From Spirogloea muscicola (taxonomy: Eukaryota > Streptophyta > Zygnematophyceae > Spirogloeales > Spirogloeaceae): a stretch of 28,372 bases of DNA. The stretch lies in NCBI GenBank assembly GCA_009602725.1, contig WELB01000083.1:545221-573592 (forward strand), in the 5' to 3' direction. The position numbers and the translations under genes were made by a program. The notes below the pieces were generated by a model, which saw only the letters and a list, made by a program, of their open reading frames with translations, did not search any database and was not told where the DNA came from. Positions 3,254 to 28,126 of this stretch are shown here, one piece after another (position 1 is the stretch's first letter; every line of letters begins with the position of its first letter).

Positions 3254-6200
3254 ATGAGTCCCCCCCTCTTCGGGAACCCGTCCGGGCCGCGGAGCCCTGC
3301 ATTGGTCCCCCTCGTCGTCGCCGCCGCCTGCGAGCCTACTTGGGCGCCCACCAAGAGGTCCCCCCCGCCGTTCAAGACCCGCTGCACCGGTGCCCGCATG
3401 GAGCCGGCGGCGACGCCCGACGAGCTGTCTGAGTACGAGGTGGCGCTGGTGACGGAGGCCATCCGCTATGTGGAGCGCCAGCGCAGCGGCGGCAGTGGCG
3501 GCAGCGACGGCGCTGAGAGCTCGCCCGGCAGCAGCGGCAGCCAGCCGGACGCCCGCCGCTCCTCGGACCTCGTCAACAAGCTCGCGGCGACGCTCCGCCA
3601 GCTTTCTGCTAAGAAGACGACGGCGGCCCAGGCAGGCGCCTCGACGGATCCTCCTCAGCCGCAGGCCCCGCCGCCGCCCACGACCTCGTCCATGGCTGCC
3701 ACCGCCGGCGGCGCTGGCGCCCGTGAGAGCTTCCTCTCGCTGCCAGACCTGCAGGGCGAGGCCCTGCCGCTGGGGCCCAGCTTCGCGGCGCCGTGGGGGG
3801 ACCTCGCCGGCGGCTTCTCCCTCGGCCCCAGCGGCGGCAGCGGCGGCAGCGGCAGCTTCCGCCTGGAGGACTACCTCGCCACCGGCCCCCCAACCGAGAG
3901 CGTCGCTGCGCCGGCCGCCATAAATCCCACAGCGGCCGCCCCGGCTGCCGCTGCCCAGCCAGCCTTCGCTGCGGCGGCGGCAGCGTCCCCGCCGGCGGCA
4001 GGCAGCTCCCCGTCGCCGCCGTTCCACGGCTTCAACCCGCTCATGGACGGCTACAGCTGGCGGAAGTACGGCCAGAAGCCCATCATTGGCGAGCCGGGCC
4101 ACCTGCGGAGCTACTACCGCTGCACCCAGGCGAGCGGCTCTCTCACTTGCCACTGGCATCACACCGCGATGCTTCGTTACCGAGGACAAGTAGCTGGCTG
4201 AATGTTGTCGTGATCTGAGTCTCTCGGTAGCCCTGGCTCTGGTCATCGAAGACACGCCATAAGCTAGAGCCCAGCTCTGATAGTGGATCTGGATCCACGT
4301 TGCATGTGGCGATACAACTCCAGGCTGACTGCACGGTGAAGAAGATCGTCGAGGGCCCGCGCCACGGTCAGCCGGTCGAGATTGTCTACAAGGGCGTCCA
4401 CAACCACCCGGTCCAGGTCATCAGGTCAGTGCAGCGTGCCACAGGCATTGGCAAATAATTTGCACGTTGCGTCTGAGACTCTTATGTGAGTCACTTCATT
4501 AAATGACTGATGGTGGCGATTCAATTGTGTATGCAATATCTAAGAGAAGTCACCTGTTGGACACACTTTGCAGGCGCATCTCAGTGGTGACGGGAGGCGA
4601 GGTACGCGTCCAGGAGGTGGGGCCGCAAGTGGGTGGCGGCGTCGGTACCAGCGTCGTGAACTACTCCCAGGGCCAGGCCATCGACCTCTCGCCGATGCTG
4701 CAGCCGAAGCGCTCCAGCAGCTTCCATGGGCTGTCGCCAAAGCAGGAGCCAGATTCGGGAACACCTCCCCAGCCCGACAGCGAGCTTGCGCAGCGGCTAG
4801 CGGGAGTCACGGAGCGGCTGGACATCAAGGACGAAGCCCCGGCCTTCACTTTCAGCTTGTCGTCGGTGGCTGACAACCCCCAGGCATACGCATTGCCGCC
4901 GCAGCCAGAGCTCTCGCCACTGCTCTCCAAGCTGCCCATGGCCGACATAGGTGCGCGCGCACCAATGTCGACGTCCAGCCCGCTTGCGCCACCGATGACC
5001 ATGGTGCCAACTCCCGGCTCAGACCCCTATCTCGACTTCCTCCAGACCCTGAAGTCAAAACCAGAGACCACCATGGCACCCCAACCTGCTGGTTTCCAGC
5101 CTCCCGCAGACCCCTCACCACTGACCTATTGGAGGACCAGCAGCTATGGTAGCAGTAGCGGCGGCGCAGTGCCAACAGCCTGTGCAGCTACTCCATTCGC
5201 TCCAGGCTTTCCACTTCAGGGCATGCCGCCGACGCCCACGTTGGGCAACACTTTCGAGGCCTTCCAGACACAGGCCACTGTCCAGCCCATCTCGACTTCT
5301 AACGAGATTCAGCAGAATCAAGTGGCACCGTCAGCCAAGAGCGTCTTCGCATCGGGGCTGAGCGTGGCCCCATCCTCGACATTCCCATCACCAACTGCAT
5401 CTTCGAGCGGGAATGTGAGCTTGAAGGCGGCGCAAATGGTCGTGCGTGACAGCAGTTGGACGCACTTGCCAGATGCCTCAGACTTGAGCTCAACTGGGAT
5501 AGACAGTGGGAGCTCCTCTTGGGAGGGAGTCGACGAGGCCAACAGCCCCAAGCAGGGGGAGCAGCAGCAAGGTGCTTCCTTGACTACGTGAACTACTCCT
5601 ACTGTTGCTTCTTCAGGAGGAGCCTTGGGAACATAATTGCTATTCTGCTGCTTGATACCTTCAGGTTTCTGAAACTCATCTGACCCGTTCTGTGTTGCAT
5701 TCTGTTTCTGCAGCAGGTAGCAGCAAACGAAAGGTTGTAACTGACAAGGATGAAGCCTTGACTGCGCACCCCAGCCCCACGTCACTCAAGTGAGCAACAT
5801 CACCTTCACTTGGACAATGTCTTGCATCAAATCCATGACCAACAGTTTGTAGCACCTGTTTCTTCGACTTGTATTATGGAATTTGAAAGGTGTCAGCTGG
5901 TATCTCAGTAGCATCAATAACGTAAAACCTTAGGTGCCACATCTCTGGTGACTGTGAATCAAGAATGTCAATCTCACAGTGCCGTAAAACTGCCTACTCG
6001 CTTGCAGGAAGGGCAGGTTGATGGATGAAGCAGACCCCGGCTCCGTGAACGAGCGGCTGATTCTGGAGACGATCTGCGGGCCTGACGAAGTCCTGGAGGA
6101 TGGCTTCGACTGGGAAAAGAAGGGCCAGAATACCAGGAAGAGCCCGCGATCCAGGTGAATGCTTGGATGGTCTAGCGAAGCTCCACCTTCTCACACACAA

Positions 6201-6497
6201 CATATTTCACTTAGATAGTGGGAAAGTGAGCTCTCTGCGATGCCGACTTGGTGGACCTAACTAGTGCAAATCCTTCTATTGGCCCTCTGCAGGTCCTACT
6301 TTCGCTGCAAGCAGCCAGGATGCCCAATACGGAAATCAGTTTCACGGTTGCAAGGCGATCCGAGGGTGGTGGTGACCACCTATGAGGGGAAGCACAATCA
6401 CGGCGTTCCCAAAGATGACCAGTCAGGAGCGAGCTTGACCGAGGCGATGCCCCATGCTGAGACTGCCGAGGCTGAGCATCAGCAGTCTTCCGCTTGA
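3254..6497 (+). CDS. Two-domain (group I-like) WRKY transcription factor with degenerate C-terminal domain
   Basis: Predicted nuclear DNA-binding regulator of 800 residues. Exons: 3254-4129, 4324-4424, 4574-5571, 5714-5789, 6008-6154, 6293-6497; all phases agree. Domain 1 (residues about 264-319) has intact WRKYGQK at 269-275 and zinc ligands C-X4-C-X22-H-N-H. Domain 2 (about 713-790) keeps C-X4-C-X23-H-N-H, but the heptapeptide is WEKKGQN (719-725). Intron 1 starts with GC (CAG/GCGAGC), splits domain 1 two residues after its first Cys, and no GT fits. The last intron splits the Arg five residues before the first Cys of domain 2, the conserved R-type position of plant group I C-terminal domains. 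The linker of about 390 residues is Ser/Pro/Gln-rich with several SP/TP sites; SSKRK near 661 may be a nuclear signal. Exon 4 has a tandem CAGCAG acceptor (5711-5716) that could drop one residue. ATG 3254 follows a GCC run; ATG 3398 (752 residues) is the alternative start. Family identity is certain; the exact N-terminus is not. Confidence 0.92.
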
Positions 6498-22101: not shown

Positions 22102-24795
22102 TTACTCCACATCTCCAGTACTTGCTTCGTCGTCATATTGGAGTAATGTGGAGATATCTGGCAGTGACGCTCGCAGTGCAGCTCCTTCCTCCCCTCCTTT
22201 CCCACTGGCCTCCACATACAGTTCCTCCACCATTGGCTTCCAAAGTCTTACACGTGCATTGATGAACCAATTGGAGATCTAGGCAAAATATTACTTATAA
22301 GAGCGTTCAGACAAGTGTTGATGACCGCATTTGTTGTCGGAACATTTGTCTGCATATTGTCAGCATTGAGCTGACTTGTGAAGCGCAAGCCCGTCAGCAA
22401 TGGCAGGATAGGCATGTCCCAGTAAGATGTTAGCTGCTTTTAAGAATCACATCAGCACCTCTCTATAGAGCCCATCTTCTAGAGCTCCACATAGATGTTG
22501 TAGTATTGACTTTCACCTGTCCTCGAGACAATCCCGTCTCCCTTGCAAGTGCATCTTTGTCCGCATTTGTTGGATATCTGTGTCGCAAGGAGGGCGCAAG
22601 AATCGTCAATGACTTGTGGGGTTTTTGTAGGTTGTACGACGCAGCAGCTCAGCTGACCTTCTTGCAGAAATACTACAGTCCTGGATTGCGCAGATTGAAA
22701 AAGCAGAAGCCCTCATCAGGGACTTGGGCTGTGCTCACGGATGAAGAAAATGCTCAAAGAGCCAGATGCGAAGCTTTTGAACAGCTGAATCCGGCAGTCC
22801 CCTCTGCGCTCGGGTGCTGGACATGCTAGAGCTCCTCAGATACTCGAGAGATGTGAGAGAAGAGGGCATTCCCCCTGGAAATAGTACTCTTGCGTCTGCC
22901 AAGTGCCTGTTCACAAGCTATCAGAATAAATTTATGCTGCTTTCAGAGAGTAAACCAGAATCAAAACGCAGGACTATAGGCACATTGCTGAGAGCCAATG
23001 CAGAGTCAACGTTGAATGTAGGAGCTTTTCGCCTGAGCTGTGCCCCTGGCCCTGCTTGCTTAAAGCTTTCCGTGAAGCATCAGAGCAGGGAGAGAAATGG
23101 TGCTGAACATCAAACGTATTATCTGGAATACAAGCAAATGGTGTTGTCAAATTCACCTCCTTGCCTCATGCCACCCAGGTAAGCTGGTAACTCGCGAAAG
23201 AGTGTGCTCACCTGAAGTTGGTCCCTGATTGCATCCTTGATTCTTCTGAAGCATTGTGACATGGCTCTCATTGGAGCCTGAGTGTAGGCCTTGGCTGTTT
23301 CCTCCCCGGAGTTGAGGCTCAGCTGATACTCCACATCCTTCAGCTGTGATATATACTGGCTATATCGCCTGTCGACCTGCGTAAGAATCTCAGCGCGCAC
23401 GCATCAGGACTGTCCGAATGGTCATATTTAGTACAATTGGTGAGCCCCTTCTCCTCTGCATCTTCTTACTAGAGTACTGGTACTTTCGACATTCCCCTCA
23501 CACGCAGCAACTGTAGCCACTCACTGGAATTCACATGTACATGAAGAACGCCAACAAGGTCTGCAGATTCTTGACTGGGGCTTACCTCGTTCAGCATCGC
23601 TGTCAACTTCACCCTCCTCCTCTCCAGTTCAGCTCTCCTCTCTGGCAGAAGCTCTGAGGCTACTTCAACTCCTGCCAGTTGTGTATGGGAGCTCTCGTCT
23701 TGATCGTGGCCTTGCCTGTCCGCTTTACTCTTGCCCTTGTGTTTCCTCTGCAGGTCTTGTGGGCTTCTGCCACTATCTTGACGGTCTGCATATCGAGCAC
23801 TGCACACCTCCTTCAGGAGCTCCTGTGCTGCAATTAGATAGCTTCGCACCCGAGAAGACGCTACTTTTCCGCCTGGGGAACCTGCCCCTGGTGGTTGACC
23901 ATGAAGCGTGCCATCAACAGTCTGCAGATGTATATTGTCAGCCTCCGCATCTCCAAGCTGATCAAAGGCCGGCTCGGGCTCCTCCATGTGATCAAGCGTC
24001 AACTGAGGCATGGCTGGAAGGCTTATGATCTCCTCCCTCTGCGCTTCACCTCTCATCAACCCTGCCTGGACCTGCGCGTCAAGTGCTGTGAAAAGAGACG
24101 GAGAAGTGACCCTGTGGGTGGGCAAGTGCGCAAGGAGGCTGGCCAGGCGAACAAGATCAACACTTGGAAACCCTGCCTGCTGCGCATGCGGCAAAGCCCC
24201 TGACGGACTTGGAGCCAGCAGCACTGGAGGCGGGGTGGGCATCCTGGCCTGCGGCTTAAGAAGCTGGTCATGAGCATCTCCAGGTAGCGGCGCCAAGAGG
24301 GTGTTGGCAGGGCCCCGTTCCCAGTGCCTCTTAGTGATCTTAGTGTGGCCAGGGCGGAGCATCATGAACTGGCTGGCGCATACGGGGCTCTCGCGTGGTG
24401 GTGAGCCGCTCTGGGAGTGGTGGAACGATTGGTCCTGATCCAGCAGCGTCTGCTGGCTCCGAGCCTCATGGGCCAAGTGCGGCGTGTGCGGCGCTGGCCC
24501 GTGGCTGGTGCCGGAGGGCCCGCCGACCGACAGCCTCATGCTGGGAGCACTGCCGCCATGGCAGGACGACGCCAGCAGCGGCGGCGGCGACGCCGGCGCG
24601 CCCGCCATGCGCAGCGGGCTCATGGGTGGCGACAGGATGAGGCTCATGAGCGGCTCATGGCCGCCAGGCACGCCGTAGAGGCTGGCCAGCAGGTCGCCGG
24701 CGGGCCCCGGGTCAGCCCACAGCGCCTGGGGGTCGAAGCTGCTCCCACCGCTGCCGGCCACCGCTTGCGCCGCCGCTGCGCCACTGTCCGCGCCG

Positions 24796-24830
<35 letters not shown>

Positions 24831-24861
24831 ATGCTGCTGCTGTAGCTGCTCCTGCTTCTGC

Positions 24862-24902
<41 letters not shown>

Positions 24903-25016
24903 CAGCAGCATAAAGGGTAAGCCGGCGTGCTGATCTGCTGGAAAAGGCGGCGCAGGCCACTCGGCGCCCGGGTGGCGGGGCTGCGGCGCTGTCCGCCATG
25001 GTGGCAGCCTCGACAT
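22102..25016 (-). CDS. BELL-class TALE homeodomain transcription factor
   Basis: Nuclear regulator that in green plants works as a heterodimer with KNOX proteins. Minus-strand exons 25016-23586, 23376-23157, 22874-22739, 22577-22517 and 22278-22102 give 674 residues in phase. The N-terminal 386 residues are Pro/Gln/Ser-rich, with a polyglutamine tract at about 39-73. A SKY-like segment ([14 protein letters not shown], about 391-404) is followed by the BELL domain: [59 protein letters not shown]. The homeodomain (about 571-637) reads [20 protein letters not shown], the TALE loop [10 protein letters not shown], and helix 3 [17 protein letters not shown] with the invariant WF.N (Trp620, Asn623). 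The C-terminus is acidic. The join from exon 2 to exon 3 is my choice: donor 23156 (GGAG/GTGAAT) with the acceptor before 22874 keeps frame through [14 protein letters not shown]. The stronger donor at 23211 (CAG/GTGAGC) would need another exon. Start ATG 25016 is the first in frame. Confidence 0.9.
24798..24909 (-). repeat. CAG/CTG trinucleotide repeat coding polyglutamine in BELL
   Basis: About 35 nearly pure CAG codons on the minus strand, interrupted by a few AAG, GAG, CTA, CAT and CAA codons, encode the Gln tract of the BELL protein. The interruptions suggest a moderately stable allele. Such tracts often act as activation domains and vary in length between strains. Confidence 0.95.
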
Positions 25017-26064
25017 CTACTGGTTTGCCGCTGCACGTAGCAGGGCTGGAGGCCCGTGGCAGGGCGCGGCCAGGGCGGCGCGGGCCCGTGCGAGCTCGCG
25101 CCTGTCACGGTGGCAGAGCTCGGCCAGCGAGCACATCAGCGCGAGGCCGGCCTCCTCAGGACCGCCGAGCTGGGCTTGTGGAGGCACGCCATGAGCAACC
25201 CTCGGCGCAACAGCGAGCCGCCGAGTCGGCTCGCCGTAGCGATGGTGGCGGGGCCGAGCATAAGGCACGGCCACGGCTCCTCGGCCCCCATGAAGGGGGT
25301 CGGTGACCACAACTCTGGCTCAGCCTGCCAACGGTGCAAAAAGCAGGCGGCCTTAGTGTGGCTGGCCCATAACGAGGGAGGAGGAGGAACGTGAGGATAG
25401 GACGTCGAGGCAGGCGAGCGGCCGCCAGCGCCGTGGAAGCTGGCGGCTGGACAGCGATGGCGGGCGGGGGCGAGGTGGGCTGTCACGTCTCGCCCGCCCG
25501 GGCCGGCCGGCCTGCAGCTCGGCCCCCCGCCGGCCGCCCCGGCGCGGCAGAATCCGCGCCGGCGCCGTATTCGGCCCGGCCACTGGGGCGTCATCCGAAC
25601 CGTGGACTATCTCCCGTCCCGCCGGCCGTGGCGGCCCGTCACATCACCCGCGGCCTCCTCGTGCGCTGGCCGGCCCACCGTCGCCGCCTCCCTTCTCCAG
25701 CCGTCTCCTCTTGCCTCGTCCTTCTGAGAAGAGTGTTTCCTTCTCTATCTAGAAGTGCCTACAGAAGAAGCTGCCAGATAGCCATTCAGTAACCCCTTGT
25801 CACTAGCCGCCATCGGAAGCACTAGCAACAGGGAGGGATCTCCACCTTTACTTGGCTATCCTTTGTGTTGTTGCTATTGTTGCTAATTGTCTGGAGTCTT
25901 CGTGGTGGGGATTCCGCCAGAGACCTAGTTCATGTAACTCGTGCTGGCCTTTCACAATCACCGTCTTTGTTTGAAAATCCTTCAAATATGGCACCTGCCC
26001 TTGAGAGCGTCACCAACTATCATCGCCACCCTCCTGCCGCGGCATGCACAGCTTGCCCAGCAAG
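25017..26064. other. Upstream region of BELL gene
   Basis: 25017-25700 is GC-rich, with open frames on both strands that resemble no protein; it is the probable 5' UTR and promoter of the BELL gene. From 25730 on, base composition returns to average. A faint repeat-like phrase (CGTGCTGGCCTTTCACAATC, 25939-25958) may be a decayed dispersed-repeat core. No gene is supported. Confidence 0.5.
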
Positions 26065-26116
26065 GTGCGCTAGCCGCTCAGTGAATGGCTGTCCAGTCAC
26101 TGAGCGGCTAGCGCAC
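26065..26116. repeat. Perfect 20-bp inverted repeat (hairpin)
   Basis: Left arm 26065-26084 (GTGCGCTAGCCGCTCAGTGA) and right arm 26097-26116 are exact reverse complements around a 12-base spacer. The arms are 65% GC, so RNA or single-stranded DNA would fold into a strong stem-loop. It lies outside every gene I can call. No T-run follows that would make it a terminator. Confidence 0.95.
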
Positions 26117-27904
26117 TATGAACCCTTGCCGTTCTATCGCATGCTCTAGATTCCAGAGCCAGCCCAGGCCACATGGCAGTCAAAGTGAAATCACACGACG
26201 TAGAGCTCTGGTTGCAGCCTCGCAGCCTCTTGCTGTCACCGCTGCAATTGCTATCGACTACTTGTCGGAAACAATCTTTGACTCGTAGACGGGAAACCTG
26301 ATTGCAGCTTCCAAGCGTCCAGCGTTGCGGGCTGGCCCTCTTGCACTTACCAGCCTCATCGCCTCTTTCTTACCCTTTATATATGCCATGTGGAGTGCCC
26401 CAGAGAGTTGATGATGATGCCCAGCTAGACTTACCTTCGAACATGCTGGGTGCTTGCGCTCCATTTTCCCATCTAAAGTCTTCTAGCAATTCATGTCCAA
26501 ATGTTCACTCTCGCCACTCCAATCTGATCTAGCAAATCTAACAGAGACTTGGGATGAATTGGAACATTTCACTTGCATATCAAGACGCAGATGCACTTCA
26601 TGCGCGTCTTCCAAATGTGCGTCAGGAAACCGTAGGAGCGGGCATGGCAGCATCTCAGCCGAAGGACCTCCAAACGACATGCTGCACCTTCACAAATTGA
26701 GCTCCTAAATCTACGGTTTGCTTTTGTAGCACAAAGTCCAAGATCGATCCAAGAAACCTCGTATCTTAGGACGAGGCAAAGGTCAGTATAAGCCAGACAA
26801 TTGTCTGATGACATGTCTTGTTTCATATTAGCCAGGAAGTCAGTAACCTCTTGCAAAAGTTTCGGATCAAGGGTTTAGGGGTCGGGGTTTAGACAGAGAG
26901 AGGACAGAGCTCGACAAATGAAAAGAAGCTCTCCCCTGATTCCTTAAGGGGCAGATGGCTCGAGGAAGGTACGGCATTCTGCTGATAGTAGATCGTGGTT
27001 ACACTCAGAGTCATTAGAGAGCCTAAACTTAGTCCACTGGTTGCTAGACAGTCATATGCGCATCTCCACGCGTTTCAAGTAGTCACTCAATATTTCCATT
27101 TGCAGCCTTGCACAAAGCGCACAGGATACCTGCGCTATTTCCATTAGCTTATGATTTCCATTAGCTAATTAAGTCAGCGAGTACAATGCTTCCCTAAAAG
27201 ACCTCATCCGTCTTCAAACGATGAAACTGTTATTATACTCTTGTCACTATGATATTTGGAGGCACTATTGCTTAAAGTCAAAGCATAAGCATGCGGGCTA
27301 TCAAAAGTCATTTGCCTAGGCCACACTGTCCTTTACTAGCTCTAGCAACCACAATCCAGCATCGTCATTGATGCGTGCCAATACCTTGATCGAGGCCACA
27401 GGTGTGCTGCTTGAGCTTCGAGCTGCAACCACATGCCGATATTTTGTCATGCAAAAGGCGCCATCTCACACGTACTGATAGCGGATACAGCCCAGATGGG
27501 TTGATTGAGCCAATAGAGGCGTATACTCCTGATTCACTGGATTCACACGTTTACAAGCAACACCAAGAAGGGCTTCACAAGAACACAGCTTTAATGCTCG
27601 TCTCATTACCAACCAGAAAGTAGTTGTGCTACGCTGCAGAGCTGGTCCTTCATTGAAGGTTATTAACAAAACAAGAAATTTGGGTCAGCTAAGTTCTAAT
27701 ATTACGATGAATACTGTGTCACTATGTGATGAGTTGGCTTTCATGTTTGAACAAGATCCACACGAATGTCAAATGATGTGCAAGGATGTCTGATATGTAT
27801 CTTAACTGCGTCTATGTGCAGATATGTGACTGAGAATCGTAGTTGTTGCATTGTTGTTTTGTTAAAGATATTCCACTTCGCAAAGGGGCGTGGGAAAAGG
27901 TAAC
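26117..27904. other. Unassigned region, possible minus-strand exons
   Basis: Two good minus-strand donor sites lie close together: GTTCGAAG/GTAAGT at about 26434 and GAGGCTG/GTAAGT near 26350. Upstream on the same strand is an open frame (26856-26569) beginning LQEVTDFLANMKQDMSSDN. They could be exons of an unrecognised gene, but I could not join them in frame or match them to a family. At 26871-26892 two GGGTTTAG units resemble plant-type telomere repeat/telo-box sequence. A perfect CAGACAATTGTCTG palindrome is near 26795. From 26900 to 27890 I see nothing coding. Confidence 0.4.
27895..27898 (-). terminator. RNA polymerase III terminator of 5S rRNA
   Basis: On the minus strand TTTT lies a few bases beyond the 3' end of the 5S gene, the minimal polymerase III termination signal. 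It supports the 5S copy being transcribable. Confidence 0.6.
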
Positions 27905-28025
27905 GTGGATACGACACGAGGACTTCCCGGGAGGTCACCCATCCCAGTACTATTCTCGCCCAAGGGAGCTTAACTTCGGAGTTCTGATGGGATCCGGTGT
28001 AGTGGCCCTGGTATGATCGTATCAC
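27905..28025 (-). rRNA. 5S ribosomal RNA
   Basis: Read on the minus strand, the sequence GTGATACGATCATACCAGGG, then CACCGGATCCCATCAGAACT, CCGAAGTTAAGC, TTGGGCGAGAATAGTACTGG and GATGGGTGACCTCCCGGGAA is a complete 5S rRNA of about 121 bases with land-plant-like loops. The ends (GTGATACGA and TCGTATCCAC) pair to form the terminal stem. The internal promoter blocks (box A in AGTTAAGCTCCC, box C in GGATGGGTGACC) are intact. It is a single copy here, not a tandem array, 102 bases from a dispersed repeat. The exact 5' and 3' ends are good to a base or two. Confidence 0.95.
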
Positions 28026-28126
28026 GACAAATGGGTGCCGCATGCAAACAAGAACTGTGGCAAAGTCATGATTTAATGATGGCAGCAGGGAGATGGTTCA
28101 AGTGGGAGAAGAAGCTCCCTATTTAA

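Follow-up and report, generated by a model that had tools for sequence, protein, structure and literature searches.

The 28,372-nucleotide window, by which we mean the whole stretch of Spirogloea muscicola DNA analysed here (positions 545221-573592 of contig C83, in an assembly of 153 Mb and 471 contigs), contains on its + strand a WRKY gene of group I, divided into six exons. The spliced frame encodes 799 amino acids and contains no internal stop (Table 1). The splice sites were picked by eye and checked by script, and the start of exon 1 is a putative ATG that is common to the window copy and to one of its two further copies in the genome (L010). The sites bounding intron 5 are CCAG|GTGAAT at the donor and CTGCAG|GTCC at the acceptor. 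The GC donor of intron 1 is present in all three homeologs.

Table 1. Features of the window, with positions counted from its first nucleotide
Feature	Position	Strand	Remarks
Exon 1	3254..4129	+	N-terminal WRKY domain starts at 4043; heptad codons 4058-4078
Intron 1	4130..4323	+	GC-AG type; within the N-terminal WRKY domain
Exon 2	4324..4424	+	Completes the zinc finger of the N-terminal domain (C-X4-C-X22-HNH), its HNH extending to 4407
Exon 3	4574..5571	+	Long linker joining the two WRKY domains; spliced model
Exon 4	5717..5789	+	Basic SSKRKVV stretch; spliced model
Exon 5	6008..6154	+	Exon 5 part of the C-terminal WRKY domain, with the heptad
WEKKGQN codons, replacing WRKYGQK	6111..6131	+	TGG GAA AAG AAG GGC CAG AAT
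Intron 5	6155..6292	+	PR-type position, splitting an Arg codon; same place in 3/3 copies
Exon 6	6293..6497	+	SYFRC, zinc finger, tail; stop codon included
Finger Cys codons in exon 6	6306-6308, 6321-6323	+	C-X4-C-X23-HNH
Finger HNH codons in exon 6	6393-6401	+	C-X4-C-X23-HNH
Open frame matching the POX domain	23469-25016	-	PF07526

Both the N-terminal and the C-terminal WRKY domain (N-domain and C-domain) matched Pfam PF03106 within one spliced frame, with 77 and 65 bits, respectively, against a cut-off of 21. The C-domain match of the window copy covers profile positions 1-58 of 59, and the C-domains of the other two copies scored 64.1 bits each. The C2H2 finger pattern C-X4-5-C-X22-23-H-X-H is present in both domains, the spacing being counted by hand. 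The C-domain is interrupted by the PR intron in all three copies, an intron that has been named as a feature of the group I C-terminal domain (PMC4350883). The heptad of the N-domain is the canonical WRKYGQK in 3/3 copies. That of the C-domain is WEKKGQN or WEKKGQS. Substitutions of the C-terminal heptad are known, and the lack of WRKYGQK alone does not exclude membership of group I (PMC5112548). Because the C-domain heptad is not WRKYGQK, the predicted protein is a group I member by architecture with a diverged C-domain, rather than a typical member of the group. The first-pass annotation had described a group I protein with a degenerate C-terminal heptad and a conserved finger, and this description is borne out by the Pfam matches, the finger spacing and the PR intron; the seven codons that it read in exon 5 were likewise found in place (Table 1).

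Two further copies of the gene were found, L010 on contig C151 and L009 on contig C290, both with the heptad WEKKGQS. Thus, position 7 is N in the window copy and S in the other two, and the remaining six residues are identical. The exon-intron plan of both copies matches that of the window gene wherever it is readable, the 5' part of exon 1 of L009 falling within a long run of N. In blastn comparisons with 39.9 kb of C151, 11 of the 39 blocks were longer than 150 bases and lay along much of the window; with 39.9 kb of C290 this was the case for 9 of 19 blocks. The identity of these longer blocks was 73-87% in the two comparisons. The order of the blocks is conserved save for one short block per comparison, and the part of C290 that matches window positions 24106-28117 is inverted. 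On these alignments the neighbourhoods of the three copies are homeologous, and the threefold homeology is consistent with the genome triplication reported for S. muscicola (PMC11712027).

An assembly error at the heptad, about which there had been an earlier worry, is an unlikely source of WEKKGQN because WEKKGQS is encoded by both homeologs, which lie on other contigs and share the splice positions where these are readable. The two strands of the three loci were pattern-scanned between the exon 1 end and a point shortly beyond the gene; no WRKYGQK-like exon turned up, although such an alternative exon had been proposed as something that would overturn the annotation. The scan recovered the WEKKGQ frame alone in each copy, and a hidden canonical exon was rejected for that span. 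The artefact explanation as a whole, be it misassembly, hidden exon or pseudogene, could draw on the use of a single assembly and on the run of N in the third copy; the agreement of three loci and the outcome of the pattern scan leave it a negligible probability.

The three copies are the only group I genes among the matches listed by two genome searches, one with PF03106 and one with the C-domain itself, both of which score the best candidates only in an assembly that may be incomplete. The 25 PF03106 matches listed were sorted by hand: six came from the three group I genes, three from genes with a V-type intron and four from a pair of loci on C243 and C227; eleven were loci with a full-length uninterrupted domain, of which eight were read, and one match contained a stop. 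No further group I gene was among the 25 matches listed with the C-domain as query. Neither list of matches contained an additional group I gene whose C-domain was intact.

Searches of solved structures yielded 13 sequences for each domain. For the C-domain, phmmer ranked AtWRKY4-C, AtWRKY33-C and AtWRKY1-C first. The best four for the N-domain were chains of AtWRKY2, AtWRKY33 and AtWRKY1, to whose N-terminal domains we take the accessions 6j4e, 6j4f and 6j4g to belong. Structures of the N-terminal domains of these three proteins have been described for these accessions (PMC7026264). A 16-domain tree placed the N-domain with those of Arabidopsis at an ultrafast bootstrap of 90%; the branch of the C-domain is long (0.79), and the splits near it have 33-56%. 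The protein resembles land-plant group I proteins such as AtWRKY1, AtWRKY4 and AtWRKY33 in its two WRKY domains, in the finger spacing C-X4-C-X22-HXH (N) and C-X4-C-X23-HXH (C), in the PR intron, and in that the best solved matches of each domain are group I domains of the corresponding position. It differs from them in the WEKKGQN/S heptad of the C-domain and in a post-heptad loop that is one residue shorter than in three aligned Arabidopsis C-terminal domains. No relatives were found in the viral contigs or the prokaryote genome contigs searched. A transposase-like origin of the C-domain was rejected, the MuDR and FLYWCH models matching below their cut-offs only.

Two-domain WRKY proteins with C-terminal WRKN, WRKD, FRKY, WIKY, WRIY, WWKN or WWKS have been described (PMC5112548). 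The C-domain studied here is similar to these in that one or two of the WRKY residues are replaced, two in the case of WEKK. In contrast to them, the change here extends to the seventh residue and is shared by all the group I copies that were found, the comparison being by four letters only since the seventh residues are not given in the available text of that source. Alternative heptads kept across a lineage are represented by the fungal WKNNGNT and the diplomonad C-terminal WKKYGHK (PMC4350883). However, the fungal proteins have a single domain and another finger spacing, unlike the gene described here, and the diplomonad heptad keeps Tyr4 and Lys7, both of which are changed here. WEKK is absent from the forms named in the available text of PMC5112548 and from that of PMC4350883, and WEKKGQ did not occur in the text, as distinct from the figure alignments, of the literature searched. 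Substituted C-terminal motifs are already known; the joint change at positions 2, 4 and 7 is unusual, as is WEKKGQN/S as the sole group I type found in the genome.

In AtWRKY1-N, the heptad residues R2, K3, Y4, G5, Q6 and K7 contact bases, and the backbone and flanking contacts come from R131, Y133, R135 and K144 (PMC7026264). In the C-domain of the S. muscicola protein, R2 is replaced by E, Y4 by K and K7 by N or S, and K3, G5 and Q6 are kept. According to the alignment, the equivalents of R131, Y133 and R135 are also kept, and Arg occupies the K144 position, which is also the case for AtWRKY4-C and AtWRKY33-C. Phe replaces the second Tyr of RSYY in the C-domain, and likewise in AtWRKY18. All mutant tests were made in proteins other than the S. 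muscicola WRKY. Changing K7 to Ala, Gln or Arg abolished binding in the N-terminal domains tested, with the exception of a slight band for the K-to-R mutant of AtWRKY2-N; the R2A, K3A and Y4A mutants of AtWRKY1-N retained DNA binding, and no binding was seen for K3A of AtWRKY4-C (PMC7026264). In GhWRKY17, binding was lost in Y4A and K7A and nearly so in R2A, and it was also lost when Ala was put in place of Y267, which by our numbering is the strand 3 Tyr that comes second (PMC12905487). The change of Lys7 is the strongest single argument because AtWRKY1-N still binds DNA with R2A, K3A or Y4A. Judged by these comparisons, the strand that reads the bases has been rewritten, and the predicted backbone grip of strands 3 and 4 has largely been kept. 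The grip is not fully kept because the second Tyr of RSYY, whose Ala mutant does not bind in GhWRKY17, is Phe.

The net charge, in which only K, R, D and E were counted and which was computed for the window and C290 copies, is +1 for the heptad as against +3 for WRKYGQK. The post-heptad loop, on the other hand, carries +4 in the window copy and +5 in the C290 copy, whereas the loops of three Arabidopsis C-domains have +1 or +2, and the whole C-domain carries +10 and +11, respectively, compared with +7 or +8; the source of the Arabidopsis loop value of +1 and of one total of +7 is 8k31, a construct with a Cys in the loop. The total charge of the N-domain of the window gene is +5.

The protein sequence of the N-domain is identical across the three copies, with no protein change in 60 codons. 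In the C-domain, four protein changes were counted by parsimony in 75 codons, compared with 44.6 expected neutrally, and its finger part had one change compared with 22.8 expected, the neutral expectation being based on the gene-wide synonymous rate. A Fisher test gave fewer changes for the C-domain than for the linker (P 0.03), but no significant difference from the linker for the stretch of the C-domain encoded by exon 5 (P 0.35); the linker count is about 50-51, with 51 (half of the summed pairwise counts) used for the former test and 50 for the latter. There was also no significant difference between the C-domain and the N-domain (P 0.13). Pairwise dN/dS was 0.215, 0.237 and 0.252 for the linker exon 3; over the complete C-domain, with its own synonymous counts, the values were 0.07, 0.42 and 0.06. 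For the exon 5 part of the C-domain they were 0.28, 0.89 and 0.29, derived from three protein changes, one of which falls at the Lys7 position. A run of ten codons is identical in the three copies and is uninformative on selection because its silent sites are identical too. Taken as a whole, the C-domain looks to be under constraint, a reading that the counts support for the domain rather than for the new motif as such.

We hypothesize, with a probability of roughly 0.6, that the gene encodes a group I factor in which the C-domain no longer reads the W-box, its fold is kept and the N-domain reads DNA. The rewritten motif probably ends normal DNA reading by the C-domain and leaves the zinc-finger frame in place. 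The N-domain would recognise the W-box, the C-domain would still fold around zinc, and, with its basic surface, it may either hold on to DNA at a second point, weakly and largely irrespective of sequence, or provide a scaffold for a non-VQ partner. That the heptad changes should cost the domain its W-box binding, as the first-pass annotation proposed, agrees with what published mutants of other proteins would predict. The annotation's idea of a role swap finds no support in that form, since the division of labour between group I domains is disputed: older work assigned the main role to the C-terminal domain, and AtWRKY1-N binds the W-box with a KD of about 0.1 uM compared with 1.3 uM for AtWRKY1-C (PMC7026264). 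Because AtWRKY1-N is already the tighter binder, reading by a lone N-domain would mean the loss of a second reader and not a swap.

The C-domain may instead dock a partner protein without any contact to DNA. There is a precedent in the VQ proteins, which bind only the C-domain of group I members via strand N and the following loop, the I358A/I360A double mutant of WRKY33 showing no binding of SIB1 (PMC11088704; see also PMC5052590), and the strand N-like stretch ERL[I/V]LET of the S. muscicola protein contains hydrophobic residues. However, the genome search gave no VQ protein above the Pfam cut-off of 20.5; the best match reached 17.3 bits over 10 of 28 positions, and matches below the cut-off also occurred in 5 of 14 control genomes, none of them from a plant. 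In a hand alignment, moreover, the loop has one extra residue, I358 of WRKY33 has no counterpart and Val stands at the position of I360, and a module of this kind would have no need to keep DNA backbone contacts. A purely protein-binding role is thus unlikely, and the earlier suggestion of a protein-interaction module fared poorly for the VQ class, the one checked. The DNA-grip or non-VQ scaffold role is favoured because I358 is unmatched and no VQ protein lies above the cut-off. A bolder alternative to that role is that the WEKKGQN/S strand enters the major groove and reads another DNA sequence, so that the protein would be bispecific. The domain has retained its match to the family, its basic charge and the greater part of its backbone grip, and fungal WRKY proteins with a conserved WKNNGNT show that even a strongly divergent heptad can persist (PMC4350883); nevertheless, Arg2 to Glu would place a negative charge beside the DNA, and the alternation of N and S at the seventh position is odd for a base reader, so we regard a retargeted strand as rather improbable. 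It is doubtful that the factor combines an N-domain on the W-box with WEKKGQN/S on another site as the sole group I C-domain form in the algal lineage. Slow decay, in which relaxed constraint on the C-domain is tolerated since the N-domain does the work, would account for the N/S variation at position 7 and for the exon 5 dN/dS values, few as the underlying changes are. It is very unlikely in view of the frame, splice sites and zinc ligands, all intact in 3/3 copies, and of the shortage of changes in the finger part.

It has been proposed that the ancestral WRKY proteins were of group I, with its two domains (PMC4350883). A relative of land plants with a rewritten C-terminal reader in every group I gene found would offer a natural test of a lone N-domain, and the same case would probe roles of the C-domain besides W-box binding. 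Sequences lacking WRKYGQK were dropped in one legume survey (PMC6192229), and surveys that filter on this motif would miss such a protein.

The remaining WRKY matches listed for the genome are of other kinds. In the eleven loci mentioned above the WRKY domain is uninterrupted by an intron, and five of them lie on contig C21. The eight that were read (L001-L008, on C21, C421, C82, C370 and C25) have DGW[SNR]WRKYG[KR]K, and their Cys residues are spaced more widely; the other three are on C21, C361 and C9. On C23, a match related to these contains a stop in frame. This intronless-domain set looks like a lineage-specific expansion, as far as the matched loci suggest. L013, L014 and L015, on C471, C114 and C42, are mutually similar; they contain WRKYGQK, and their intron follows RKQV, as is typical of WRKY groups IIa/IIb, and the C471 gene groups with AtWRKY18 in the domain tree (83%). 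In the neighbourhood of the window gene, a Pfam scan of 10 of the 43 listed open frames gave one match above its cut-off and one weak match below. The former is to the POX domain (E 3.3e-9, 37.8 bits, cut-off 27) on the minus strand, and a BELL-type homeobox gene is therefore likely to adjoin the WRKY gene.
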